In this document: positions 14,356 through 30,905 of the stretch, piece by piece
Layout of the letters: each line of letters starts with the position of its first letter
Numbering within the stretch: position 1 is the stretch's first letter
Source of the DNA: a virus
Length of the DNA stretch: 46,217 bases
Strand: one strand, 5' to 3'
IMG/VR virus record: IMGVR_UViG_3300045953_000189
Coordinates: 1-46,217 of that record
Made by a program: the position numbers and the translations under genes
The notes under the pieces: model-generated
Databases searched by the model: none
What the model was told of the DNA's origin: nothing
What the model saw: the letters and a program-made list of their open reading frames with translations, nothing else

Positions 14356-14601
14356 CTAGCGCGGCCCCTCGATCGTGACCTTCATCCCCTCGCACTCGGC
14401 CGTGACCTTCCCGACGACCCCCTTATCGGCATTGGCCCACAGGACCACGCCGTTCCCGTAGGGTGAGCCGATCCGCGTGCAGCCGACGTGGGCGTCCTTC
14501 ACCTTGGCGAACTCGTGGAGCTGCTCGGGCGTCATCTGCGCGGCGGTCAGCGTGCAGCCGGCCAGGAGCAGGGCCGCGAGGAGGAGAGGCAGCGGGCTCA
14601 T
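14356..14601 (-). CDS. small lipoprotein, possible outer-membrane spanin
   Basis: An 81-residue lipoprotein with lipobox LLAGC (residues 12-16). The mature part is short, with Cys pair C41/C70. It overlaps the holin-like gene by ATGA and ends the late operon, 13 bases from the converging plus-strand lipoprotein gene. A small lipoprotein beside lysis genes fits an o-spanin, but the Pro-rich sequence common in o-spanins is missing. Confidence 0.65.
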   Translation of the reverse strand: MSPLPLLLAALLLAGCTLTAAQMTPEQLHEFAKVKDAHVGCTRIGSPYGNGVVLWANADKGVVGKVTAECEGMKVTIEGPR

Positions 14602-17042: not shown

Positions 17043-17213
17043 TCACCTAATGGGCGCGAGGAATTCGACCACGCCGCCGCCCATCGCCCAGAACGCATAG
17101 CGCGCGTACCACGGACCGAGCAGCATCCCGACCGCGAGCCACCACACCCAGGAGGGGATTGACCGTACCCTTTGTGGGACTCTTGCTACCCGGCCGGAGA
17201 TCCTCAGACTCAC
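17043..17213 (-). CDS. small membrane protein, 56 residues
   Basis: A GTG start overlaps the nuclease stop as GTGA. After a basic 18-residue start the protein is a Trp-rich hydrophobic stretch (WVWWLAVGMLLG and AFWAMGGGVVEFL), likely one or two membrane helices. It may belong to the lysis functions. Confidence 0.6.
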   Translation of the reverse strand: MSLRISGRVARVPQRVRSIPSWVWWLAVGMLLGPWYARYAFWAMGGGVVEFLAPIR

Positions 17214-17572
17214 CGCTTGACTCCGTAGCCGCCGGCCAGCAGGTCGGTCGTCAGGTTCGCGCCGTCGCGCGCCCGATGCACCGTGGCCAGCACGCGCCCG
17301 AACGCATCCCGGCTGCAGACGTGCAGACGGAGCTCGGCGCCGTCGAGCCAGGTGGCGGTGAAGCCGCGCGCCGCCTCGCCGGCTTCGCGCGTCGGCCCCT
17401 TCATCTCGGGCGTGTTGACGCCGAGCACGCGCACCGTCTCGCGGTTCGTCTGGCCCATGAAGATCCTCAAGTCGGCGACGAAACTATCGCCGTCTATGGT
17501 TCTGACCGGCGTGGCCATGACCGACCAGCAGAGGAACGTGATGGAGACGACGCTAGTCGCCGAGGACGCCAT
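17210..17572 (-). CDS. exported staphylococcal-nuclease-like (SNase) enzyme
   Basis: A 120-residue SNase (thermonuclease) domain. The active-site residues can be placed: Asp in TIDGDSF (27, 29), Arg 48 in VRVLGV, Glu 56 in NTPEM, and Arg 93 in AFGRVLA. The first 20 residues are hydrophobic and end in SVMA, so it probably carries a cleavable signal and cuts nucleic acid outside the cytoplasm. It begins 20 bases inside the preceding exported-protein gene. Possible uses are digestion of released DNA after lysis or defence against other phages (inference). Confidence 0.82.
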   Translation of the reverse strand: MASSATSVVSITFLCWSVMATPVRTIDGDSFVADLRIFMGQTNRETVRVLGVNTPEMKGPTREAGEAARGFTATWLDGAELRLHVCSRDAFGRVLATVHRARDGANLTTDLLAGGYGVKR

Positions 17573-17810
17573 AGACCGGCTCTCCGTTGACCACGGGCAC
17601 GGACTTGCACTGCGTGGTCACCTGCCCGGCGCCGTACCACGTGATCCAGCCGCGCTGGCCCTCGCACTCTTCCCGGGTGGCGTGGACGGCGGTGGACGTC
17701 TGGATGCCGGGCGAGGTCTGAAGGCTGGCCTGACACTGCGTCACCGCTTCCCCCGCCCAGGTGAACGTGGCACAGGTGACCATCCAGATGACGAACGCGA
17801 TCGTCTCCAT
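17553..17810 (-). CDS. small exported protein with paired cysteines
   Basis: An 85-residue protein. The first 20 residues (METIAFVIWMVTCATFTWAG) form a signal peptide or membrane helix; the rest has three further Cys (about residues 26, 49 and 68) suited to disulfides in the periplasm. GGAGG lies five bases before the ATG at 17810; a GTG one codon earlier would overlap the upstream stop. It overlaps the SNase gene, so the two may work together. Confidence 0.65.
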   Translation of the reverse strand: METIAFVIWMVTCATFTWAGEAVTQCQASLQTSPGIQTSTAVHATREECEGQRGWITWYGAGQVTTQCKSVPVVNGEPVYGVLGD

Positions 17811-18085
17811 CACGCCCTCCTCCGAGTTGATCGGACGGCGGCGGCAGTCACGGCTGCCTGCGGCCCGGCCTCACCAGCCAACGACACCCGGGATTGAGCG
17901 TCCGGCGAGGTAACGAAAGAGCGCGCCGCCCGACACACGCACCGGCAACGAACTGGCTTCCCGCCACGCGTGCTCAGCGCCCGGTAGACCTTCTGACAGC
18001 GCCCGCACGCGCCGCGCTTGCAGGGCTGGCACGTCGGCAGCGGCCGTGTCGCCGACTGGCCGTGCTGCCAGGGGCGCTCCTTCAC
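17810..18085 (-). CDS. cysteine-rich zinc protein, 91 residues
   Basis: A GTG start overlaps the upstream stop. Residues 15-57 contain seven Cys in the pattern CQPC, ACGRC, then CRCVC, likely two zinc sites, with a basic, helical tail ending in Arg residues. Not recognised; nucleic-acid binding is likely. Confidence 0.65.
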   Translation of the reverse strand: MKERPWQHGQSATRPLPTCQPCKRGACGRCQKVYRALSTRGGKPVRCRCVCRAARSFVTSPDAQSRVSLAGEAGPQAAVTAAAVRSTRRRA

Positions 18086-18948: not shown

Positions 18949-19397
18949 GCGTCCACACCTGTAAGGAACTGCTCAGCCAGTCGGCGAGCTCGCGAGGGTG
19001 AGTCCTCTTCCGCCCATGTGCTGTCGAGCATCTGATACTTGGCCTCCGCCCAGTCACCCGCCTGCGCGGCGGCCAGGAACTTGTGGAAGCCCAGCAGCCC
19101 ACCGATCCCCATCTGGAAGGCCATCTGCACCAGCACGCCCAGCCGCACGGGGCTCAGCTCGCGCACCGTCCAGGGCAGGCGCCCGACGACCGCGTTCACC
19201 GCCCGGGTCATGTCGTTGGACAGCATCGCCTCGCCCTCGTCCTCCGAGACGGGGACATCGTCGAGGTTCCGACCCCAGCCGACCGTGAGCTTCCCCTTCT
19301 CCTCGCAGACGCACTGCCGCCAGGGCTTCCCGCAGCAGTCGAGATACGGGAACTCCCGGAAGCCCTCGTCGGCCTTGAGCTGATCGCGGACCGTCAC
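18945..19397 (-). CDS. GH24 (T4-type) lysozyme endolysin
   Basis: A 150-residue muramidase that should break the peptidoglycan glycan strands at lysis. The catalytic Glu 11 (ADEGFR) and Asp 20 (YLD) fall at the same numbers as in T4 lysozyme, and the Thr follows in LTVGWG (38). The Thr is about 12 residues later than in T4, because of a Cys-rich insertion (Cys 21, 22, 29, 31) between Asp and Thr. No signal peptide is present, so a holin is needed. A GAGGAAG site precedes the GTG, which overlaps the upstream stop. Confidence 0.9.
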   Translation of the reverse strand: MTVRDQLKADEGFREFPYLDCCGKPWRQCVCEEKGKLTVGWGRNLDDVPVSEDEGEAMLSNDMTRAVNAVVGRLPWTVRELSPVRLGVLVQMAFQMGIGGLLGFHKFLAAAQAGDWAEAKYQMLDSTWAEEDSPSRARRLAEQFLTGVDA

Positions 19398-19813
19398 TTG
19401 ATCTTCCTCAGCAGCTCGTCCAGCTTCTTGTTCGTCTCCTTCGCCGACTCCTGCTGCTCCTTCATGCGGTCCTCGATGACGCGCAGCCGTTCCTTGATGA
19501 CGGCGATGTCGGAGGCCTGGGTGCTCGTGTTCTTCGATGCCTCGTCCAGCTTGCTGTCCACGCGGTTGACCTGGGCCTGCATCGACGTCGCCCAGGCGCC
19601 GCCCGCGATGACGAGCACGCCGACGAGGACCCCCACCAGCCACTTCCAGGTCACCCCCCCCTGGCCGCGCTCTGTCATGTGGTCGTCTCCCGGCGGGTCC
19701 GTGCGACGTCGCCCGCGCGCCGCCGCCTCGCGCTGGATCGTGAGGGTGTGCAGCGCCGTGCGGAGCCGCTGCTCCAGCTCCGCGCGAGGCAGCCCGCTGA
19801 GGTCGTCGCTCAT
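19394..19813 (-). CDS. membrane-anchored coiled-coil protein, spanin-like
   Basis: A 139-residue protein: a charged N-terminal part, one membrane helix (about residues 57-75, WLVGVLVGVLVIAGGAWA), then a long coiled coil to the end (DSKLDEASKNT to LDELLRKIK). This layout fits an inner-membrane spanin or an XhlA-type lysis accessory. It lies directly before the lysozyme. A start at residue 46 (MTERG) is possible and would give a more usual short cytoplasmic end. Confidence 0.65.
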   Translation of the reverse strand: MSDDLSGLPRAELEQRLRTALHTLTIQREAAARGRRRTDPPGDDHMTERGQGGVTWKWLVGVLVGVLVIAGGAWATSMQAQVNRVDSKLDEASKNTSTQASDIAVIKERLRVIEDRMKEQQESAKETNKKLDELLRKIK

Positions 19814-19817
19814 GCCC

Positions 19818-20144
19818 CTATTGCTTCGTGAGCGTGACGCTGCCCATCTGCAGCGCCTTGGCGCACTTGGCCCACTTCACGCGCACCTTGCCCGCTGGAT
19901 AGTCGATCGTCACCGGCCCGCACATCGGGACGATCGACGCTGAGAACGACGTCGTCTCGCCGGTCGGCAGCGAGGCGCTCCCCGCGGCGCTGTAGCGGCT
20001 CACGCCGTCGTAGGGTGTCTCGACGACGCAGTCCTTCGTGACGCCGTCGGCGTTGTCGGTGCAGACCAGGGTGAGTGTGGTCGTCTGCGCCTCCGCGACC
20101 ACCGCCAGCCCCAGGATGAGCAGCCCCGCCAGGATCGTTCTCAT
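19818..20144 (-). CDS. small exported protein, 108 residues
   Basis: A clear signal peptide (MRTILAGLLILGLAVVAEAQ, cleavage after AEA) is followed by a beta-rich domain with Cys 29, 40, 77 and 95 that may form two disulfides. It overlaps the 449-residue exported gene by ATGA. Not recognised. It is the last of four consecutive exported proteins. Confidence 0.7.
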   Translation of the reverse strand: MRTILAGLLILGLAVVAEAQTTTLTLVCTDNADGVTKDCVVETPYDGVSRYSAAGSASLPTGETTSFSASIVPMCGPVTIDYPAGKVRVKWAKCAKALQMGSVTLTKQ

Positions 20145-21490
20145 TTTCCAAACCCCCTCATGGATCGCCGGCCACTGCCCCCGCCCCCGCCGACGACGAT
20201 CTCGCCGACGTTCCAGGTCCAGAAGAAGCTCTGCGCCGGGTCGGTGTCCGTCATCTGGTAGGTGATGCCGTCGCTGTCGAACGACTTGGTCTTCATCGCG
20301 CCTTCGAGCGCGTCGGAGGTGGAGAGGTTGCAGTACACGTCCGTCGCGCGGTAGCCGAGCGCCGTCTCCGTGTTGGCGTCGGAGGACTTGTCTTCGTCCA
20401 GGGCACAGAACGCCACTCCGGTATCGGCAGCCGTGGAGGCGCCGATGGACATCTCGGCGTGGTCCTGGGCCGTCCCGGCGCTGCTCTGGGACGTGGCGTG
20501 CGAGAACACCATCGCCAGGCGCGGCGTAAAGCCGAAGCTCGTGGTGACGATGTCGTTGCTATCGGTGCGAGTGAGAGAGTCGACGATCTTGTACTTCCCG
20601 CCCTTGATGGCGATCCAGTTGAACCAGCGAGAGGCTGCCGGGTTGGCCGTGCAGTCGATGTCGAACCCGTCGGACTGCCACGCCGACACCCCGCACCGGG
20701 CCTGGAAGGTCCCCAGGCGGTTCATCGTGACCAGGCTCTCGTTGGCCCCCGTGCGCCCGTACCGCTTCGTGTTCGGCGGGTTCGGGTCGGCCTCCGCGTT
20801 GTCCGAGCCGAGACACGTCACCGCGTTGACGATGGAACCATTCGGGCCAGCGGCCGCCCCGATGCACAGGGCGGCCTCGCTGCCGATGGCCGCCGCGGTC
20901 CGGTCGCCCGAGGACGCGAAGATCACCGTATCCGGCTGGAACCCCACACCGGTCACGCTGAACGGATCGGTCGTGCCGGTGTTCTGCCCGCCCGTCTTGA
21001 CGTTGGTGACATCGCTGCCACCGACGGCCACGTAGCCGATGGTGTAGTCCGACCCGAGCTGGTCCGTGATGGTGACCGTGAAGCCGTCCGAGTCCAGCGT
21101 GCAGGACGCCCCGCCGTCGTCGGCGTTCGCGCCGGTCATCACCGTGACGCATTCAGTCGCCAGGACCCCGCCGCCCGTGCTGGTCGTGGCGACGTTGTCC
21201 TGCGAGGCCACGGTCATCATGCGGAAGTCGGACGAGGAGGCGACGAAGCCGATGCCGGGACCGCGCATATGCCCGCCCGCGGCGGTGTCCGTCGTGGCGG
21301 TGGTACCGTTCCAGAACAGCAGGACGTACTTCGGGGTGAAGCCGAAACCCGACACGGAGACGTTCGCCCCGATGCTGCCCGTGCCCAGCTTGAACGTCCC
21401 GACCTTGACGCCGAGGTCGGCCTCGACCGGAGCGACCCAGAGGCCGACGACCAGGAGCAGCGCGAGGAGGAGGCGGCTGATCGTAGTCAT
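20141..21490 (-). CDS. exported repeat protein, 449 residues
   Basis: The first 25 residues are a strong signal peptide (LLLALLLVVGLWVAPVEA). Three related segments follow, each marked by a G(F/V)GF(T/Q)P core and a hydrophobic strand (GFGFTPKYVLLFW, GVGFQPDTVIFAS, SFGFTPRLAMVFS), about 130 residues apart, with the look of beta-sandwich fibre domains. The C-terminus is Gly/Arg-rich (GGGGGSGRRS). The content is that of a tail-fibre-like or adhesive protein, but the export signal is unusual for a virion part. It starts three bases after the upstream stop. Confidence 0.7.
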   Translation of the reverse strand: MTTISRLLLALLLVVGLWVAPVEADLGVKVGTFKLGTGSIGANVSVSGFGFTPKYVLLFWNGTTATTDTAAGGHMRGPGIGFVASSSDFRMMTVASQDNVATTSTGGGVLATECVTVMTGANADDGGASCTLDSDGFTVTITDQLGSDYTIGYVAVGGSDVTNVKTGGQNTGTTDPFSVTGVGFQPDTVIFASSGDRTAAAIGSEAALCIGAAAGPNGSIVNAVTCLGSDNAEADPNPPNTKRYGRTGANESLVTMNRLGTFQARCGVSAWQSDGFDIDCTANPAASRWFNWIAIKGGKYKIVDSLTRTDSNDIVTTSFGFTPRLAMVFSHATSQSSAGTAQDHAEMSIGASTAADTGVAFCALDEDKSSDANTETALGYRATDVYCNLSTSDALEGAMKTKSFDSDGITYQMTDTDPAQSFFWTWNVGEIVVGGGGGSGRRSMRGFGK

Positions 21491-21493
21491 GGG

Positions 21494-22864
21494 CTACGGC
21501 CCCCGATGGACGGCCAGCGCGGTCGTCCCAGCCAGCCCCGTCCGGGCCTGGACCGGAGCGTTCCGCGCCCGGGAGGGGGACGCGCAGCCGGTCCGCACAC
21601 ACTGGAGCATCGAGCGGCCTGCTGAGATCGCATCCGCGTGATGATGGGCGATGTGGAGCCATCCCATCCCGATCACGCCGTTGTCCCAGGGGGGGCGGGT
21701 CCGGAAGTGGTGGTTCGCCCCGTCGACGTAGTTGGTGAAGCGCGGGAGTGTCGTCGAGCGATCCCAGATGACGAAGCCCAGGAGCCGGGCCAGCTTCGGG
21801 GCGTGCTGCTCCAGCGTGGAGCCGGTCGGCGTCATGTTCACCAGCGACGAGTAGCCCATATCGACCGCGCGCTGAATCGTGTGGGGGATCCGGTTCTCAT
21901 GCTCCGTGTCGCCGCTGCAGGGGGAGACGGTGTTCGGCGCGTCCCCGCAGAAGGTCGCGCCGGTGTAGCCCTTGTAGTGATGCAGCTCCGCGCCCGCCGT
22001 GGCGATGGGTCCCGACGGGGCCGACACGGTGGCCAGGTACGAGTTGAGCAGGACGACGATGCCCTGCTGGTACGTCATCGTGGTGCGGAAGATCGTGTTC
22101 GTCAGCCCGGCCCGGCCCAGCCCCAGCATGATGTTGGCGAGCAGGTAGGGCTTGTCGCTCGTCGGCGTCGTCGACAGGAAGCCCCACTGGTCACGCGCCA
22201 TCCACTTGCGGACCACGTGGTCATGCACGAAGTCCCGGACCGCGGTCGCTCGGCTCCCATACGTCGCCGTGAGGCCCGCGTCGGAGAGAATGATCCCCGC
22301 CACCCACGCCATCTCCGTCGCGCCCTGGAACTCGTTGAGCAGGAAGCCGGCGTTCGTCCAGGTGCAACCGCCCACCGTGGCCGAATAGGAGCCCGGCCAG
22401 GACTTGAAGCCACAGGAGTCCGTGTTCGTGGCCTTGGTGATCATCGTCTCCGCGTAGCCGAGCACCCGCTCGAGGTACGTCGTGCCTCCGTAGACGTCGT
22501 GGGCGGCGTTCCAGCCCTGCAGCGCCCACTGCATGAAGTAATACTGGTTCGCCGCGCCGCCCGCGTCGTTGCCGCCGCCGGAGTTGATCGCGCTGTTGAA
22601 GAACGACTGGTTCGTCGTCCACTCCGAGTCGATGTAGGTCTTGATGTCGGCGAGGATGGCCGCCTTGCCGGAGTCCGGCGGAGGCGGCGCTGGCGGCTGC
22701 GGCGTGGTCGAGGGCGGCGAGGCCGGGATCGACGGACGGTCCACGACGGCCGGACGGTCCACGACGAACGGCGGGGGCGACGGCAGCGGCGTGACCGGCA
22801 CCACCTGGCCCAGCCCCAGGAGCGGGGTGAGGACGACGAGGACGAGCGCGAGCAGGGCTCTCAT
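21494..22864 (-). CDS. exported alpha/alpha-barrel-like protein, possible glycan-active
   Basis: A 456-residue protein: signal peptide (ALLALVLVVLTPLLGLG), a Pro-rich linker (residues 22-62, with repeated VDRP and PPP), then a helical domain with many aromatics. The segments DTEHENRIPHTIQRAVDMGY and HHFRTRPPWDNGVIGMGW look like the ridge of helical-barrel polysaccharide lyases or hydrolases. Catalytic residues cannot be assigned, so enzyme activity is a guess. The upstream 76 residues of the longer frame are a shadow; the ATG at 22864 lies four bases after the upstream stop. Confidence 0.6.
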   Translation of the reverse strand: MRALLALVLVVLTPLLGLGQVVPVTPLPSPPPFVVDRPAVVDRPSIPASPPSTTPQPPAPPPPDSGKAAILADIKTYIDSEWTTNQSFFNSAINSGGGNDAGGAANQYYFMQWALQGWNAAHDVYGGTTYLERVLGYAETMITKATNTDSCGFKSWPGSYSATVGGCTWTNAGFLLNEFQGATEMAWVAGIILSDAGLTATYGSRATAVRDFVHDHVVRKWMARDQWGFLSTTPTSDKPYLLANIMLGLGRAGLTNTIFRTTMTYQQGIVVLLNSYLATVSAPSGPIATAGAELHHYKGYTGATFCGDAPNTVSPCSGDTEHENRIPHTIQRAVDMGYSSLVNMTPTGSTLEQHAPKLARLLGFVIWDRSTTLPRFTNYVDGANHHFRTRPPWDNGVIGMGWLHIAHHHADAISAGRSMLQCVRTGCASPSRARNAPVQARTGLAGTTALAVHRGP

Positions 22865-22868
22865 CGGC

Positions 22869-24572
22869 TCAGAACCTCGCGTAGGAGACGATGCCGTTGA
22901 CCTGGACGCTGCCGCTCGTCTGCACGCACACGTGGCGGTTGAGGCCGGTCGCCTTGTAGAGGATCCCGCCGGGGGCCGCGGTGTTCGTCCAGCCGGTCTG
23001 CGCCGTGAGGCGATGGTTCGCGCTGATGGTGGCCGACGAGGCGCACGTGCTGGAGGTGCCGTCCACGAGCTTGAGCTGCGTCGTGCCGTCACTGCTGGCC
23101 TCGACCGAGCAGATGTAGATCAGCTCGTCGGCCACGGCGGCGATCAGCTGGACCGGCGTCGTGGCGGCCGCGGTGTCGAACGTCGCCGTCTCGGTGCAGT
23201 GGATCTGCGTCGGGTGCAGGCCGTTCGACGCGAGCGAGGCCTGGAGGTGGAAGTCGACCTGGCCGGCCGACATGGAGGACGTCCGCACCCGCACCGACTT
23301 CCAGCCCGTGCCCTTGAACCACCCCCGGTAGGCGTTGGACGTTGTGACGTTCGTCAGCGAGGAGATGATCTTCCCGTGGCTCGTGGTGGTCGTCGCCGTG
23401 TCGGTCTGGAGCACGACCGGCACCCGGAACCAGACGCTGTCGTCGAAGGTCGCCTCGAAGACGACGACGCAGGTGCAGCTTGTGTCCACCACGATCGAGA
23501 AGGCGATGGAGCCCGCGCCACGGACGTCGAGGGTGAGGTTCGTCGCCGTCGTGACGTTCAGGAGCGCCTGCTCGCGGTTGTAGCCCTGGACGCTGACGAC
23601 CGTCGTCGGGCTGACCTCGAGCCCGTTGGCCGTCATGGCCGCCGTGCCGTCCGGCTTGACGGGGTACACGTGAACGTCCCGGTTGGCGTTCATCCGGGCC
23701 GCGCCCACTTTGCCGTCATCCGGGGCCGTCGGCGTCGCGTCGAAGACGAAGCCGGCCGGGGTGACGTTCGTCGTACCGTACACCCAGACCGTGTTGTCGA
23801 CGGCGCTCGTACCACCCGTCCCGGAGCAGCCGGAGACGCAGCGGAACAGGGCCGCCATCTCGTCGCCCGCGGCGGACGAGCCCTTGAACGTCAGGGACTG
23901 GAGACCGCCACCGCCAACCTCGGCCCCGGTAACGAACACCTGCGGGGCCGTGACCGTGGCGACCACAGTCCCGTTCGCCGTCCCCGAGGTGTAGGCGCTC
24001 ACGCGCACGCGCGCGTTCTTGAACGCCCCCGGGTAGACGATGAGCCGATTCGTCTGGCCGTTGGGATTGGTGACGACCAGTGTCCCCGCGGTCAATCCGG
24101 TCGACGGGTCGGCGAAGACGGCCGCGACGTAGTTGGTCCCGTCGACTGAGACCTCCGGGACCAGCGTCCCTTCCAGCGAGCCCGAGGCGAGCGCGAAGCT
24201 GGCTCCCTGCCTGCCCGCGAGCGCCACGGTGACCGCTGCGTTCAGCGCGCCGAGGGCGGACGGCCCGGCCGTCTGGTCGGTCGCCGTCGCGCAGCCCGTA
24301 ACGCAGTTGACATCCGCGGTCCCGGCCGGGCGCGTGACGAGCCCGCGGGCGCTGCCGCCGGGCGCGCTGGTGGCGGACTCGACGCAGAGAGTCGAGTTGT
24401 CGTCGCAGATCACCAGCTCCTGGCGATGGACAAGGCCAGCGCCCGTGTTGAGCGTCTTCGTGCCGATCGCCTTGCCGGCGTCCGGCGTGGTGATGCTGGA
24501 GTCGGCGGCCCAGGCGGAGACGGGCGGCAGGAGGGTCAGGGTCAGGAGGAGCAGCCCCGCGAATCTCAGCAT
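22869..24572 (-). CDS. large exported protein, 567 residues
   Basis: A signal peptide (MLRFAGLLLLTLTLLPPVSAWA, cleavage AWA|A) is followed by a beta-rich protein with Ser/Thr/Val/Gly-rich strands and scattered Cys pairs (for example CVTGC near 90). The two halves share short strand-like blocks (VSVDGTNYVAA, VVFEATFDDSVWFRVP) as in jelly-roll fibre domains. AGGGAG precedes the ATG by six bases. It is the first of four exported genes after the tail-tip genes. Function unknown. Confidence 0.7.
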   Translation of the reverse strand: MLRFAGLLLLTLTLLPPVSAWAADSSITTPDAGKAIGTKTLNTGAGLVHRQELVICDDNSTLCVESATSAPGGSARGLVTRPAGTADVNCVTGCATATDQTAGPSALGALNAAVTVALAGRQGASFALASGSLEGTLVPEVSVDGTNYVAAVFADPSTGLTAGTLVVTNPNGQTNRLIVYPGAFKNARVRVSAYTSGTANGTVVATVTAPQVFVTGAEVGGGGLQSLTFKGSSAAGDEMAALFRCVSGCSGTGGTSAVDNTVWVYGTTNVTPAGFVFDATPTAPDDGKVGAARMNANRDVHVYPVKPDGTAAMTANGLEVSPTTVVSVQGYNREQALLNVTTATNLTLDVRGAGSIAFSIVVDTSCTCVVVFEATFDDSVWFRVPVVLQTDTATTTTSHGKIISSLTNVTTSNAYRGWFKGTGWKSVRVRTSSMSAGQVDFHLQASLASNGLHPTQIHCTETATFDTAAATTPVQLIAAVADELIYICSVEASSDGTTQLKLVDGTSSTCASSATISANHRLTAQTGWTNTAAPGGILYKATGLNRHVCVQTSGSVQVNGIVSYARF

Positions 24573-24649: not shown

Positions 24650-24817
24650 TTAGCGCGTTGCCGTGTCCGCCGTCATCCGGATCTCGTTCCGGTGCCCGCA
24701 GTGGCGGCAGATCCGGACGAAGATCGCGTAGCCGTCCGCGATGGCATTGACGTAGTCCCCCAGCCGCTTGTTACAGCGGGCGCAGCGCATCTGCACCAGG
24801 GGCTGATCAGTGCTCAT
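24650..24817 (-). CDS. Com-like zinc-ribbon protein, 55 residues
   Basis: CARC (Cys 12, 15) and CRHC (Cys 37, 40), separated by a short hydrophobic segment, make a zinc ribbon resembling Mu Com, which binds mRNA and switches on translation of a modification gene. It overlaps the upstream gene by 11 bases. Com-like proteins are usually beside mom-type DNA modification genes; none is obvious here, so this may be a general zinc ribbon. Confidence 0.6.
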   Translation of the reverse strand: MSTDQPLVQMRCARCNKRLGDYVNAIADGYAIFVRICRHCGHRNEIRMTADTATR

Positions 24818-25109: not shown

Positions 25110-27422
25110 CTAGGCCCCCCGCTTCGGTGACGTGAACAGCGTGGTTCGGACCACCGACGGAAACTCCGTCGGCCGCACGGACGCGAACCGGGTCGTCCGA
25201 GACGGTGCCGGGAAGACGACCGTCCGGCTGACCCCGGTGCCCGGCAAGTTGACGGTCGGCGCGGCGCCGATGAGACTCATGCTCCCGGCGGGGGGCTCGA
25301 TCCGGAACTCGGCGAGCGGGGCCGGGACTTGGCCGGTGAGCGTCAGCGTGCCGGCTAGAGGCGTGACCAGCGTCGCCAGGGCCACCGTCGGGGGCTGACC
25401 GACCGCGGCGAGGCTGCCAGGTGAGGGCGTGACTTTCGCCTCGAGCATGACGATCGGCGCATGCCCGGCCAGCGCGACAGTGCCAGCGGGCGGTGTGACG
25501 TTCGTGTTCCCGGGGCTGTCGAGCTGGACCGTCGGCGCGAAGCCCGTCAACGCGGCCGCGGCGCCCCCTGGAGTGACGCGCGCCTCCAGCCGGGGCGTCG
25601 GGGTGGCCCCCGCGAGGACCAAGGCACCGGCAGGCGGCGTAACGAGGGTATCCGTGACGAGGGTCGGCGCGGCACCCGTGAGGGCGAGGCTCCCGGCAGG
25701 AGGCGTGACCCGTACCTCGGTGACGACTGTCGGCGCCGCCCCAGCAAGAGCCAGCGAGCCGGCAGGCGGTATGACCCGGTGCTCCGTCGTGAGCGTAGGA
25801 GCCGCGCCCGTGAGGGCCAGGGTGCCAGCCGGGGGCGTGACGGTGGTCTCGCTCCCCCCGCCTCCACCGTCCACCTGGACCGTCGGCGCGTGCCCCGTAA
25901 GGGCCAGCGAGCCGGCAGGAGGAGTGACCACCGTGGTGACCACCACGGTCGGGGCCAGCCCCGTCAGGCTGAGCCCCCCGGCCGGAGGCGTGACCTCCGT
26001 GTTCTGGACCTGCCGGAACGTCGCGATGGCGCCCATGACGTCGGCGGCGGTCGTCCAAGACGCCGTGGTCGAGTAGGTGCCAACCTCTCCGAGGATCCGC
26101 TGGCCGGTGACGAGCTCGTTCGTCGCTACCGTCGTGACTTCCAGGTTGTGCTCGAGCGTGAACCCGCTATTCAGCGAGGGGCTGCTGATGTTCTGGCGGT
26201 AGCCGAACGCCGCGAACGCGATCTCGTCGGCAACCTCGATCGTCCCCGTCGTGCCGGAGGACAGCGAGGTGACCCCCGTGGTGTACGCGGTCGAGGTCGC
26301 CTGATCAAGCGCGAGCTGGATGCCAGCGGGATCCGGGACGGCGACCTCATACATAGCCGCGCAGGAGAGCTCGTTCGCCGGAGTGGTGAAGGCCGCCGCC
26401 GTCTCACCGCCAGCCGCTACCTTGTAGGCGATCCGGAGGTGGTCGTTGTTGGTGGCGTTCAGGACGTCGATCGCCGTCGTCCACCCGGTCGGATTCCCCA
26501 GGGGGTCGCCCCGGGTCATGATCAGGGCCACGAGCAGATTGCCCTTCGCGGCTGACGACCCGAACACGGGCGTGACGTTGTCGTCCGGGCCTGCGGTGTC
26601 CGTCGCCCGCTGAATGATCGAGATCCGGCTGGCGTGCGGTACCTGTCCGGTGAGGCTGAGCGAGCCTGCAGGCGGCGTGACCACAGTCGCCATGGCCACG
26701 GTCGCCGCCAACCCCACGGCAGCGAGCGCGGCCGCGGCGGGTTGCACGAACGTCGTCATGATGACGGTCGGGACCAGCCCCGTCAGACTGAGCCCGCCAG
26801 CCGGGGGTGTCCGGGTGGGCGTGAAGTCGGCGGTGACGATCCGCGTCCCGGCCGAGGTCGAGGAGCCCGTGCGCCAGTTGACGTCGGCCGTCGACATCGT
26901 GGCCGCGCCCGTGCGCTCCCAGGCGACCTGCACGAACAGGTACTGATTGTCGATCGAGAACGCGCCCGGGTTGAACGTGAGCGTCGAGTCCTCGTCCGTC
27001 CCGCTGTCCACATCCGTGATCAGTGAGCCCTGCTGCTGGCTCCCGGTGATCTCGACCGCATTCCCGCCGTTTGCGTCCGCCTTGAAGAGCCGGAACCGGA
27101 TCCGTCCATCCTGCCCCGTCGTGGATGTCACGGATCGCACGACGAAGTGGAACTCCCAGTTGCCGGACGCGAAGGTGCCGGTGTACGGATTCTCGGATCG
27201 GAAGGCGTCGAAGTTCGTCGTGTCGAGTGAGCCGTCCGGCGGGTTCGTGTCGGCGAAGGTCGATGCCGCGCGCTCGACGCCGACGAAGTACGCCGAGTGG
27301 TTCGTGCTGCCCGTGCCGACCACCCAGCCGTCGTTGATGGTCGCGGCGGTCTGAGTGCTCTCGCTCAGTCGACGCCAGCTATCCGACGTCGCGTTCGCGA
27401 GATAGAGATTGATCGCGGCCAT
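25110..27422 (-). CDS. tail fibre-like protein with 14 repeats
   Basis: A 770-residue protein. An N-terminal beta-rich domain (about 1-215) is followed by three repeats, a second domain (about 280-465), and then eleven more repeats to near the end. Each repeat is about 22 residues with the core TPPAGSLALTG-APTV. The first repeat is next to the start of a domain of the kind found in many fibres, so the repeats look like an elongated stalk. It starts one base after the upstream stop. A receptor-binding or structural tail role is likely. Confidence 0.75.
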   Translation of the reverse strand: MAAINLYLANATSDSWRRLSESTQTAATINDGWVVGTGSTNHSAYFVGVERAASTFADTNPPDGSLDTTNFDAFRSENPYTGTFASGNWEFHFVVRSVTSTTGQDGRIRFRLFKADANGGNAVEITGSQQQGSLITDVDSGTDEDSTLTFNPGAFSIDNQYLFVQVAWERTGAATMSTADVNWRTGSSTSAGTRIVTADFTPTRTPPAGGLSLTGLVPTVIMTTFVQPAAAALAAVGLAATVAMATVVTPPAGSLSLTGQVPHASRISIIQRATDTAGPDDNVTPVFGSSAAKGNLLVALIMTRGDPLGNPTGWTTAIDVLNATNNDHLRIAYKVAAGGETAAAFTTPANELSCAAMYEVAVPDPAGIQLALDQATSTAYTTGVTSLSSGTTGTIEVADEIAFAAFGYRQNISSPSLNSGFTLEHNLEVTTVATNELVTGQRILGEVGTYSTTASWTTAADVMGAIATFRQVQNTEVTPPAGGLSLTGLAPTVVVTTVVTPPAGSLALTGHAPTVQVDGGGGGSETTVTPPAGTLALTGAAPTLTTEHRVIPPAGSLALAGAAPTVVTEVRVTPPAGSLALTGAAPTLVTDTLVTPPAGALVLAGATPTPRLEARVTPGGAAAALTGFAPTVQLDSPGNTNVTPPAGTVALAGHAPIVMLEAKVTPSPGSLAAVGQPPTVALATLVTPLAGTLTLTGQVPAPLAEFRIEPPAGSMSLIGAAPTVNLPGTGVSRTVVFPAPSRTTRFASVRPTEFPSVVRTTLFTSPKRGA
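25230..26000. repeat. imperfect 66-bp tandem repeats, eleven units
   Basis: In-frame coding repeats inside the fibre-like gene, each containing a GCCGGNGGNGTGAC block in plus orientation. Three more units lie near 26640-26815. Unit sequences differ by many silent and replacement changes, so they are old and selected as protein. Confidence 0.8.
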
Positions 27423-28055: not shown

Positions 28056-29492
28056 TTACCCCTCCTCCGTCGTGATGGATGCTCCCGTGTTCAGAATGTG
28101 CGCGAGCAGGCCGTCGCCGTAGACGGCGAGCTCGACGACGTCGCCGTACAGGCGGATGAGGTCCAGCCACTCCTGCGCCTGACTGATCATCCAGGGATGG
28201 CAGTAGAAGATCCGCCCGCCGGGATTCGTGACGACCGGCAGCACGTGCGCACCGTCGTTCTCGCGCTGCGCGTACGCATGATGCTCGTCGCCCATGAGGC
28301 AGGAGTCCGCCCCGTAGAGATGGAAGCGACGGAAACCGAGCATCCGGAACAGCGGGATGGCGCGCAGGAGCACCGTCGAGCCGCCCGGAACCGCGTGCCA
28401 CGTCCCGCCGTAGTGGGCGTCCAGCAGATCCTTCACCAGACCTGCCATCGTGTGGAACAGGTACGTCCGGTCCTTCGGGAGCCCCTCGAGCACGGACGGA
28501 TCACACTGTGAGCCGATGAAGTACTTGCACCCGTCCACGACCGGCTTCGTAAAGCGCGCGTTGAACGGCCGGATGTCGACGATGACCTGGGCCGACGGCG
28601 TGAGGCCGTGATCGAGCGCCCAGTTGTACGCACCGTTCAGCGTGATCAGCGGCATTCCGTCCAGACGACGGTGCCGGATCTCCTTCTCGTACTCGAGCAT
28701 CGACGGACCGCCGCCGAGGATCATGACCTCGGTGTCGTTGGTCGGAAACGGGTGGATCTGCTCCCAGCCCTGCGCAATGTTGAAGGCCACGTTCTCGCGA
28801 GCCTTCGACTCCTCCGCGTTCAGCACCCCCGACTTGACCACCTCCCGCCCCGGACGCCAGGCCGAGACGTAGAACAGGCAACGGTTCTCTTCCTCCGCTG
28901 ACCAGTGGATGACGCAGTCCCGGTCGGCGAGCTTCCGGAGCCACCAGGTGTACGACTCCACGGTCAGGTGGAGCTGCTCGCCGATGAGCGCACCGCAGTT
29001 GTCCTTCACGGTCGCGATCGAGAAGAAGACGTGCTGCGCCGCGCGAAGGATGTTGTTCAGCACCTTGTCGACGCGGTCCGGCGGGATATGCTCCATGACG
29101 TCGATGCAGAAGCCGTAGGGGGCTGCCACCGATAGCGGCTGCTCGAGATCGGCCTTCACGAACCGGAGCGCGTGCGCCTGCGTCGTGAGCGCGTCCTGGA
29201 TCTCCGGATCGAGACTATTCCTGACGAAGTCCACCATCGTGACCTTGAGGTTCCCGAGGAGGGCCAGCATCAGGGCCCCGCGACCCGTGCCGCAGCCGAA
29301 GTCGATCACCTCAGCGCCGGAACGAGGCCGAGCCTGCGCTAGGAAGGTCTGCGCGAGCAGCTCCCCCGGAGAGTCCTTCCTGTACTCCGGCATCGCCCAG
29401 AGGCGACCGTACTTCAGGGCCTCCGGGTTCCCCGGCTGGACGGCCACTATGGGGGCCTGCCCGATGATCCCGACCTTCGCGGGCGACGTCAT
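28056..29492 (-). CDS. methyltransferase fused to a DUF115 domain
   Basis: A 478-residue protein with two enzymes in a row. Residues 45-210 are a class I SAM-dependent methyltransferase (motif I IDFGCGTGR at 63-71, DVMEHIPPD near 130). Residues 240-430 match DUF115, the MptE-like family found in pterin-diphosphate kinases and flagellin-glycosylation proteins: MILGGGPSM, LITLNGAYNWAL, VIVDIRPFN, HLYGADSC. The likely job is to add and modify a small group, perhaps on a sugar or virion protein (inference). It overlaps a small gene by ATGA. Confidence 0.8.
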   Translation of the reverse strand: MTSPAKVGIIGQAPIVAVQPGNPEALKYGRLWAMPEYRKDSPGELLAQTFLAQARPRSGAEVIDFGCGTGRGALMLALLGNLKVTMVDFVRNSLDPEIQDALTTQAHALRFVKADLEQPLSVAAPYGFCIDVMEHIPPDRVDKVLNNILRAAQHVFFSIATVKDNCGALIGEQLHLTVESYTWWLRKLADRDCVIHWSAEEENRCLFYVSAWRPGREVVKSGVLNAEESKARENVAFNIAQGWEQIHPFPTNDTEVMILGGGPSMLEYEKEIRHRRLDGMPLITLNGAYNWALDHGLTPSAQVIVDIRPFNARFTKPVVDGCKYFIGSQCDPSVLEGLPKDRTYLFHTMAGLVKDLLDAHYGGTWHAVPGGSTVLLRAIPLFRMLGFRRFHLYGADSCLMGDEHHAYAQRENDGAHVLPVVTNPGGRIFYCHPWMISQAQEWLDLIRLYGDVVELAVYGDGLLAHILNTGASITTEEG

Positions 29493-29812
29493 GCGATCTC
29501 CTCCTGGGCCGCTGGGGCCTCTCCTGACAACACCTCAAGCTCGACGCCGCCGAGCACCGGCGTGTACGACACGGGCTGATCGCCCTGCAGCGCCACGCTC
29601 ACCTCGACGACCTTCATGCGGCTGCCTTCGGGCAGCGCCGCCACCTTCGCCAGCGCCTCCGCCTGAGTCGCGTAGAACTTCACGTCCTTGACCGGGGCTC
29701 GCTCCGGGTGGACGAAGACGCTGGTGACCCCGTCGTCGTAGACGAGCACCGGTGGCTTGATCGCACTCCCCCCGTGCTCGTCAGTGTGGCCGGTGATGAT
29801 GAATGCCATCAT
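29489..29812 (-). CDS. hypothetical protein, 107 residues
   Basis: Mixed alpha/beta, with a YATQAEALAKVAALPEG helix and a beta-rich C-terminal half. It is joined by ATGA overlaps to the acetyltransferase upstream and to the methyltransferase-DUF115 gene downstream, so it belongs to the same cassette. Not recognised. Confidence 0.7.
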   Translation of the reverse strand: MMAFIITGHTDEHGGSAIKPPVLVYDDGVTSVFVHPERAPVKDVKFYATQAEALAKVAALPEGSRMKVVEVSVALQGDQPVSYTPVLGGVELEVLSGEAPAAQEEIA

Positions 29813-30318
29813 CGGACTCCGTGGAGGTCAGAGCACTCCCGCCGGATCCCCGTCACGAGCTCCGCGTCTTCGCGCAGCAGGGTGAAGAACGTCTGGCCTG
29901 GGGTAGGACGCCAGACCCGCCCGCTCGGCTGCCAAGGCGAGCCCAACGAGGCCTCCCGATGGCAGCGGGCCAGGTGCGCGTCGTTCGTGTCCAGGACGAC
30001 CAGCGTGACGGCCTCGGCCCCGCGCGCGAAGGCCTCCCGGCAGAGGTGCCGCCGGATGGCCTGCCGGTACCCCTTGGCTTGGTAGGCCGGGAAGATCCCG
30101 CTGGCATGCCAGTACGTGGCCGTGGTGGGGTCCTTGATGATCGACCCCCAGCCGATGAGCTCCTGGTCGTCCATGTACCCCCAGACGGTCTCCCCCGGCC
30201 GGGTCTCACACGGCGGCTCGGGCCAGCCGTAGCAGGCCAAGAGCGCCTCGCTCCCGATCGCGGCAGCGAAGGCGCGCCACACCGGCCCGGGATGATGACG
30301 CTGGACGGGGACGATCAC
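29809..30318 (-). CDS. GNAT-family acetyltransferase
   Basis: A 169-residue N-acetyltransferase. The acetyl-CoA-binding motif A is visible as GIFPAYQAKGYRQAI (Q-x-x-G-x region) followed by a helix and a VTLVVLDTNDAHL strand. The GTG at 30318 overlaps the upstream stop as GTGA and is preceded by AGGAGG at seven bases, which sets the start. The acceptor is unknown; the neighbours suggest a glycan or protein amine. Confidence 0.82.
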   Translation of the reverse strand: MIVPVQRHHPGPVWRAFAAAIGSEALLACYGWPEPPCETRPGETVWGYMDDQELIGWGSIIKDPTTATYWHASGIFPAYQAKGYRQAIRRHLCREAFARGAEAVTLVVLDTNDAHLARCHREASLGSPWQPSGRVWRPTPGQTFFTLLREDAELVTGIRRECSDLHGVR

Positions 30319-30905
30319 GCGACGGCCTCCTGCTCGGCCAACCACTTCCAGGCGGCCGCGTTCTGGCGGCTCAGGATGGTCGGGTAGACCGCGGCCGCGT
30401 AGTCGTAGCAGCGGCTGACCATCCGCTCGAGCGTCGGCTGGTCGCGCTCCAGGCGCGCCCAGACGGCCAGCGCCCAGGCCACGTGCCCGCGCTCCTCGCC
30501 GACGAGCTGGTGGTAGTCCGCGGCCACGTCAGGGTGCAGCCGGCGCAGGAGCCCCTCGACGTACTCGGCCCGCCGGAGCGTGTTCGCCTCGTTCCAGTGG
30601 ACGACCGCGAACGAGTGCGCGAACCGCGCCGGGTCCGGGAGCTGCGCGGCCAGCGCGCAGTCCCGCTGAGTCATCGCAGCCCACGGTGGCGGCGTCGGGC
30701 GCGGGCCGAACAGGGCGCGCCCCCAGCCCGTCATCATCTCCTCGTGGCCGATCTCCTCCGGACGCATCCGCTCGGCGACGAAACGCTTCTCGTCGTCCGT
30801 CAGGTAGGGCGAGCGGAGCCACAGCGAGCTGGTGACGATGGCCGCCGTCTCGACGCCGGCGACCTCGTAGAGCAGCCGGCCGAGCTTCCGGGTCACGGCG
30901 CTCAT
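30315..30905 (-). CDS. ferritin-like diiron protein
   Basis: A 196-residue helical protein with the ligand pattern of a four-helix diiron carboxylate fold: Glu 19 on helix A, E51-x-x-H54 on helix B (EEIGHE), Glu 106 on helix C (WNEAN), and E138-x-x-H141 on helix D (EERGH). Such proteins use oxygen to hydroxylate or oxidise small molecules or tRNA. It overlaps both neighbours by ATGA/GTGA. In a phage late operon it is unusual. The fold is inferred from spacing only. Confidence 0.65.
   Translation of the reverse strand: MSAVTRKLGRLLYEVAGVETAAIVTSSLWLRSPYLTDDEKRFVAERMRPEEIGHEEMMTGWGRALFGPRPTPPPWAAMTQRDCALAAQLPDPARFAHSFAVVHWNEANTLRRAEYVEGLLRRLHPDVAADYHQLVGEERGHVAWALAVWARLERDQPTLERMVSRCYDYAAAVYPTILSRQNAAAWKWLAEQEAVA

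Follow-up and report, generated by a model that had tools for sequence, protein, structure and literature searches.

Predicted export and paired cysteines in a recurrent block of fibre-like late genes from tailed phages

By textbook, the fibres of tailed phages are built in the cytoplasm. The viral contig IMGVR_UViG_3300045953_000189 (IMG/VR; 46,217 bases, analyzed in full and hereafter referred to as the window) raises the question of why four consecutive genes at a fibre position should each begin with a predicted Sec signal peptide, and where their products would act. The phage is a tailed one, as the window contains genes for an HK97-type capsid, a tail tube, a tape-measure-like protein, and an integrase. 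Genes 1-4 lie head to tail on the minus strand with 567, 456, 449, and 108 codons (22869..24572, 21494..22864, 20141..21490, and 19818..20144, respectively), with intervals of 4 and 3 bases and then an ATGA overlap between them and a further 4-base gap to the next gene, in agreement with the coordinates and spacing reported by the first-pass annotation of this DNA. They were considered real genes because their GC content at codon position 3 was 0.92-0.94 and all four were picked by a self-written codon-usage gene finder. Based on their export signals and paired cysteines, the products of genes 1-4 and their relatives probably leave the cytoplasm and form disulfide bonds; export is well supported by these sequence features, and the function of the proteins and any docking on virions are what we infer.

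Signal peptides were identified with a home-made Sec test (positive start, hydrophobic core, and small residues at -3 and -1) that had a false-positive rate of 31/4278 internal methionines (0.7%). The test was positive in exactly four of the approximately 58 window genes, namely the contiguous genes 1-4, and the chance of contiguity for four random genes out of 58 is 1.3e-4. The N-termini of all four began with basic residues, followed by a long hydrophobic core and then a c-region, including a predicted signal peptide at residues 1-22 of gene 1 (24507..24572, minus strand) and a weak cleavage site in gene 2 (between GLG and Q). The claim of Sec-type signal peptides on all four proteins was reproduced in this way (4/4, with no other window gene passing), and the block accordingly departs from fibres and tailspikes defined as cytoplasmic proteins without an export signal. 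The test is not complete, as it missed for want of a basic residue an 81-residue, lipoprotein-like open reading frame (ORF) starting MSPLPLLLAALLLAGC at 14356-14601 (minus strand).

A tblastn search of phage and plasmid records gave a sole match, corresponding to a module of gene 1, in a protein of the Manatee Spring podovirus MW202554.1 that itself starts with a signal peptide, as does the product of one gene after it. Besides its signal peptide and beta modules, gene 1 carries the C-terminal domain of the MW202554.1 protein (residues 468-565, 22878..23171, minus strand; hmmsearch E 2.8e-16), a beta domain of approximately 104 residues that was present in more than 50 other viral contigs. Scanning with the MW202554.1 protein recovered 37 viral contigs and scanning with an alignment of its C-terminal domain recovered 48, alignments of the whole domain family being too diverse for a pattern scan while subsets worked. 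Removal of near-duplicates left a survey set of 56 loci, in which a signal peptide was predicted on 43 of the 49 domain genes with an intact start. Among the six that failed the test, L033 (5356-7281) and L095 (9080-10330) contain a signal-like segment inside a longer ORF followed by eight and six cysteines, respectively, and appear to be exported-type proteins to which a cytoplasmic segment is joined at the front, leaving the signal-like stretch in mid-protein; L089 and L111 have a signal when read from an alternative start, L108 is truncated close to the end of its contig, and L077 is an unclear case.

Export signals were also concentrated around the domain gene, with signal peptides in 53/97 of its immediate neighbors (55%) compared to 21/246 genes at least six places away (8.5%). 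Adjacent exported pairs numbered 89 against 41.1 +/- 4.7 in within-locus shuffles, exported runs were up to seven genes long, and the whole contigs of four phages chosen by capsid similarity contained two or three isolated positives without runs of this kind. The survey loci were chosen for a shared domain and are mutually related, so that p-values from the survey overstate independence, and more weight is due to the differences seen between classes of genes inside these loci. The recurring unit consisted of two hallmark genes and a hypervariable set of exported partners. Counting phages, runs of late genes for fibre-like proteins with export signals and paired cysteines were found in at least 40 besides that of the window. 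The prediction that the block would be found in other phages was borne out at the level of the hallmarks, which recurred in more than 50 contigs; the exact four-gene set was not found elsewhere. Pattern scans of viral contigs returned no relatives of genes 1-3, and those of genome contigs none of genes 2 and 3.

Periplasmic proteins tend towards paired cysteines and cytoplasmic virion proteins have few. The products of genes 1, 2, 3, and 4 contain 12, 6, 8, and 4 cysteines, all even counts, at a density of 1.90 per 100 residues versus 0.60 for this phage's head and tail genes (approximately threefold). Several are closely spaced in pairs, at residues 56/63, 90/94, 245/249, and 366/368 of gene 1 and 28/39 and 75/94 of gene 4. 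In the survey, the count was even in 46/47 exported proteins with the C-terminal domain and in 121/146 cysteine-containing block proteins compared to 89/202 non-exported proteins. Cysteine parity is a sequence-based mark of export that is independent of the signal test and was not available to the first-pass annotation. The most extreme block seen was that of L074 (784-13548), where six exported genes follow one another and the product of each has between 7 and 28 cysteines.

The same contrast was found among proteins sharing one module. The repeat module of gene 1 (residues 244-302, 23667..23843, minus strand), which carries a CxxxC pair and is common to the Manatee Spring phage protein and others, occurred in proteins with a signal peptide at 1.38 cysteines per 100 residues (even in 12/13) and in proteins without one at 0.37 (even in 4/16, a group that includes L033 and L056, whose export segments were missed by the test). 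A CxxxC or CxxC pair was present in many exported module copies and absent from the plain copies. The module itself was rejected as an export marker, since most module proteins in a held-out scan were non-exported. Chance hydrophobicity at the four N-termini was likewise rejected as an explanation of the signal peptides based on contiguity, the low internal false-positive rate, and cysteine parity. A further explanation is that the four are conventional virion proteins of the cytoplasm and that the hydrophobic start serves not for export but as an anchor that stays uncleaved or as a segment for membrane penetration. This explanation has in its favor that signal peptides were judged by the home-made test alone; it leaves unexplained both the even cysteine counts and the cysteine gap between exported and non-exported proteins sharing a module, and is regarded as highly improbable.

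A second mark of the unit is a C-terminal tag, in which a glycine-rich stretch precedes R-x-[LM]-x-x-G-[VAF]-G, with at most three further residues to the protein end. The tag was found on 28/98 genes located downstream of the domain gene at +1 or +2 compared to 5/1039 others, and in the window it ends gene 3, which lies at +2 of gene 1 (GGGGGSGRRSMRGFGK, 20144..20191, minus strand; terminating in RRSMRGFGK). As the pattern was drawn from the discovery data, it was also tested on 27 new loci retrieved by means of another module, where it occurred on 6/31 genes at +1 or +2 of the module gene versus 4/323 others. Several tagged genes in these held-out loci were non-exported, as were their partners, and the candidate role of the tag as an export or sorting signal was rejected because it also ends non-exported proteins. 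It had no match in NCBIfam, and its position at the extreme C-terminus, where no helix follows, differs from the PEP-CTERM/GlyGly-CTERM type of signal (motif, transmembrane helix, and basic tail). The tag instead belongs to a two-gene fibre-like unit that occurs in exported and non-exported form. In L104 (4646-5962), a tag (IRTLMGVGC) is internal with a further domain after it. The window block combines all features of the cassette, i.e., the domain on a signal-peptide protein, a tagged gene at +2, and even cysteine counts.

The existence of both forms bears on where the proteins end up. One explanation is that they are late-docking virion parts that fold and become disulfide-bonded in the periplasm and, at lysis, are added to completed virions as fibers or decorations. 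Pairs of a module protein and a tag protein without signal peptides were found in L117, L123, L124, L129, and L136, and both forms may end at the same place; in addition, the block occupies the usual position of fibre genes in the window. The AF2 model of the C-terminal domain (mean pLDDT 81) is an eight-strand, jelly-roll-like beta domain, and its best Foldseek match in the PDB was the trimeric cement protein of Helicobacter phage KHP40 (prob 1.00, TM 0.58, E 8.6e-3), along with the KHP30 cement protein (TM 0.55) and many viral beta domains, which would fit a decoration. These matches are weak, with no E <= 0.001 in the PDB. VIA-align placed Bacillus Ena first (Z 9.1, root-mean-square deviation 3.7 over 94 residues, where a Z of 7-8 is expected without a true relative), and both the cement-protein and Ena similarities of the modeled fold are leads.

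Cultured cyanophages provide a point against docking. L115 and L118 are the Synechococcus phages Ssp-JY42 and Yong-M4-211 (host of the latter listed as the laboratory strain Synechococcus sp. PCC 7002), which encode a 138-residue protein with signal peptide and domain and a 786-residue exported neighbor shortly before the endolysin gene, all annotated as hypothetical. The core of the 786-residue protein has a distant relative in PQ867845.1 (ORF51) that lies beside a tail fibre gene, at the fibre position, and has a different N-terminus without signal peptide; judging from this comparison, the exported form may have arisen by replacement of a virion anchor with a signal peptide. Taken together, late docking is considered possible though rather unlikely. 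A related and similarly tentative proposal, also judged rather unlikely, is a second appendage route in which Sec-exported fibre- or pilus-like proteins, cross-linked by disulfides, would coat virions or form free fibers at lysis, with the tag serving in docking; if true, a tailed phage would have some of its parts assembled outside the cytoplasm.

The surroundings of the block are those of late genes, likewise on the minus strand. Upstream are a gp77-like fibre-tail adaptor (Pfam PF23148; 24807..25109, no signal peptide, zero cysteines) and a 770-residue fibre-like protein with PPAG repeats (25110..27422, no signal peptide, one cysteine), the repeat region of which matches L043 (9691-10980), and downstream are an Rz-like spanin (19394..19813), which points to a diderm host, and a phage lysozyme (18945..19397). 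This setting matches the first-pass description of a location between tail-tip and lysis genes. It also bears on the possibility that the proteins are surface modifiers acting before lysis, in the periplasm or at the cell surface, through receptor block, superinfection exclusion, or coating, possibly during lysogeny. Such a role would need signal peptides, and an integrase is present in the window; nevertheless, genes 1-4 lie inside the late fibre/lysis run on the same strand and form no separate unit, none of the four passed a lipobox test and no outer-membrane anchor was recognized, and most relatives of the block are located among head and tail genes, making this role quite unlikely. Of the earlier interpretation, export stood (4/4 signal peptides, even cysteines, and recurrence), and no backing was obtained for changing, coating, or digesting the cell surface, for action in lysogeny, or for glycan activity of gene 2.

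The best reading, considered somewhat probable, is that the block is an exported cassette of adhesins or glycan-acting proteins that act outside the cell after release. In the late phase, all four fibre-like proteins would be translocated to the periplasm by the host Sec machinery and have their paired cysteines oxidized there, the step most strongly supported by the sequences. Gene order suggests that they would then be released with the progeny when the neighboring spanin and lysozyme genes lyse the cell. Outside, they may bind or cut surface glycans of the host, neighboring cells, or debris, as suggested by the domains of partner genes in other phages, which in Pfam included apiosidase-like PF13204 (for example in L097), PL14, Polysacc_lyase, pectate-lyase-like PF12708/GH28, beta-helix, and the lectin domain Laminin_G_3; one of the two polysaccharide lyases was below the cut-off and the other weak. 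The genes flanking the block in these phages, including terminase, head protease/capsid, and tape measure, are virion genes. The proteins might act free or docked on virions and, more speculatively, the tag could be a docking or partner-binding peptide. Several results weigh against the exported-cassette reading: most partner genes had no family match, and the domain fold is generic and therefore names no ligand. In addition, the block was placed after tail genes, between head and tail genes, or next to the terminase in different phages, so that lysis timing is no fixed rule.

Homology searches of the four proteins were largely negative. PHROGs, Pfam, and NCBIfam yielded no useful family for genes 1-4, an absence from libraries that does not exclude a virion-attachment domain. 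Gene 2, which encodes a signal peptide, a proline-rich linker, and a helical body, had no match in Pfam, NCBIfam, PHROGs, or PDB sequences and was absent from the nine major-capsid relatives searched. Its single-sequence model was all-helical with a mean pLDDT of 42, too poor for a structure search, and the helical-barrel label given to it earlier could not be confirmed. Gene 3 carries three GF-x-P repeats in addition to its signal peptide and tag. The major-capsid relatives L003-L021 had almost nothing else in common with the window, and the capsid and neighboring proteins of L003, an 8.2-kb viral contig, were 100% identical to those of the window.

Other window genes were recorded on the minus strand. 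Directly before the block, a 55-residue, cysteine-rich, zinc-ribbon-like ORF (24650-24817) appears to resemble Com-type regulators. Past the lysis genes are two small ORFs with hydrophobic N-termini (17210-17572 and 17553-17813), the first of which may be a staphylococcal-nuclease-type protein. The tail region encodes a methyltransferase fused to an MptE-like (PF01973) domain (28056-29492) and, two genes upstream of it, a GNAT acetyltransferase (29809-30345), which possibly modify virion or surface glycans.

The pieces of the block (fibers, lectins, depolymerases, and cement folds) are of known kinds; what is undescribed, as far as searchable papers show, is a multi-gene block of tailed phages for which export is the rule. 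No description of such an exported block was found in the searchable literature, which is weak evidence of novelty as most subscription journals were outside the search. If the exported-cassette reading is true, many phages would secrete tools acting outside the cell or assemble appendages after export, the cysteine content of these fibre-like, lectin-like, and polysaccharide-cutting proteins being fitted to an oxidizing compartment. The domain, tag, and cysteine parity are simple marks for finding such genes in unannotated viral sequence, and Yong-M4-211 is an isolate carrying such a pair, rendering the cassette testable in culture.

The nearest precedents found were exported endolysins (PMC6116005) and WceF (PMC7949094). 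Exported and SAR endolysins are phage proteins sent through Sec in the late phase (PMC6116005), as proposed for the block; in contrast, those are lysis enzymes, and the window lysozyme is a separate gene without an exported or SAR-type signal. WceF of Pantoea stewartii is a bacterial tailspike-like glycan-cutting protein with a Tat export signal (PMC7949094) and thus combines a tailspike-like, glycan-cutting nature with export, but it is encoded by the bacterium, uses Tat, and is a single gene. The KHP30/KHP40 cement proteins are the best Foldseek match of the domain model and differ in that the match is weak with no clear shared sequence, and that the block domain ends larger exported proteins and has conserved cysteines. 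The Ena disulfide-linked endospore appendages of Bacillus are similar in their small beta domains with cysteines and as the top VIA-align match, though the Z score is barely above background. Finally, the block resembles fibers, tailspikes, and capsular depolymerases in its place among late genes of the window, its beta-rich repeats, the lectin-like and polysaccharide-cleaving domains of its partners, and its hypervariable sequences; those proteins are produced and put together in the cytoplasm and have no signal peptides, whereas signal peptides and even cysteine counts are the rule in the block.

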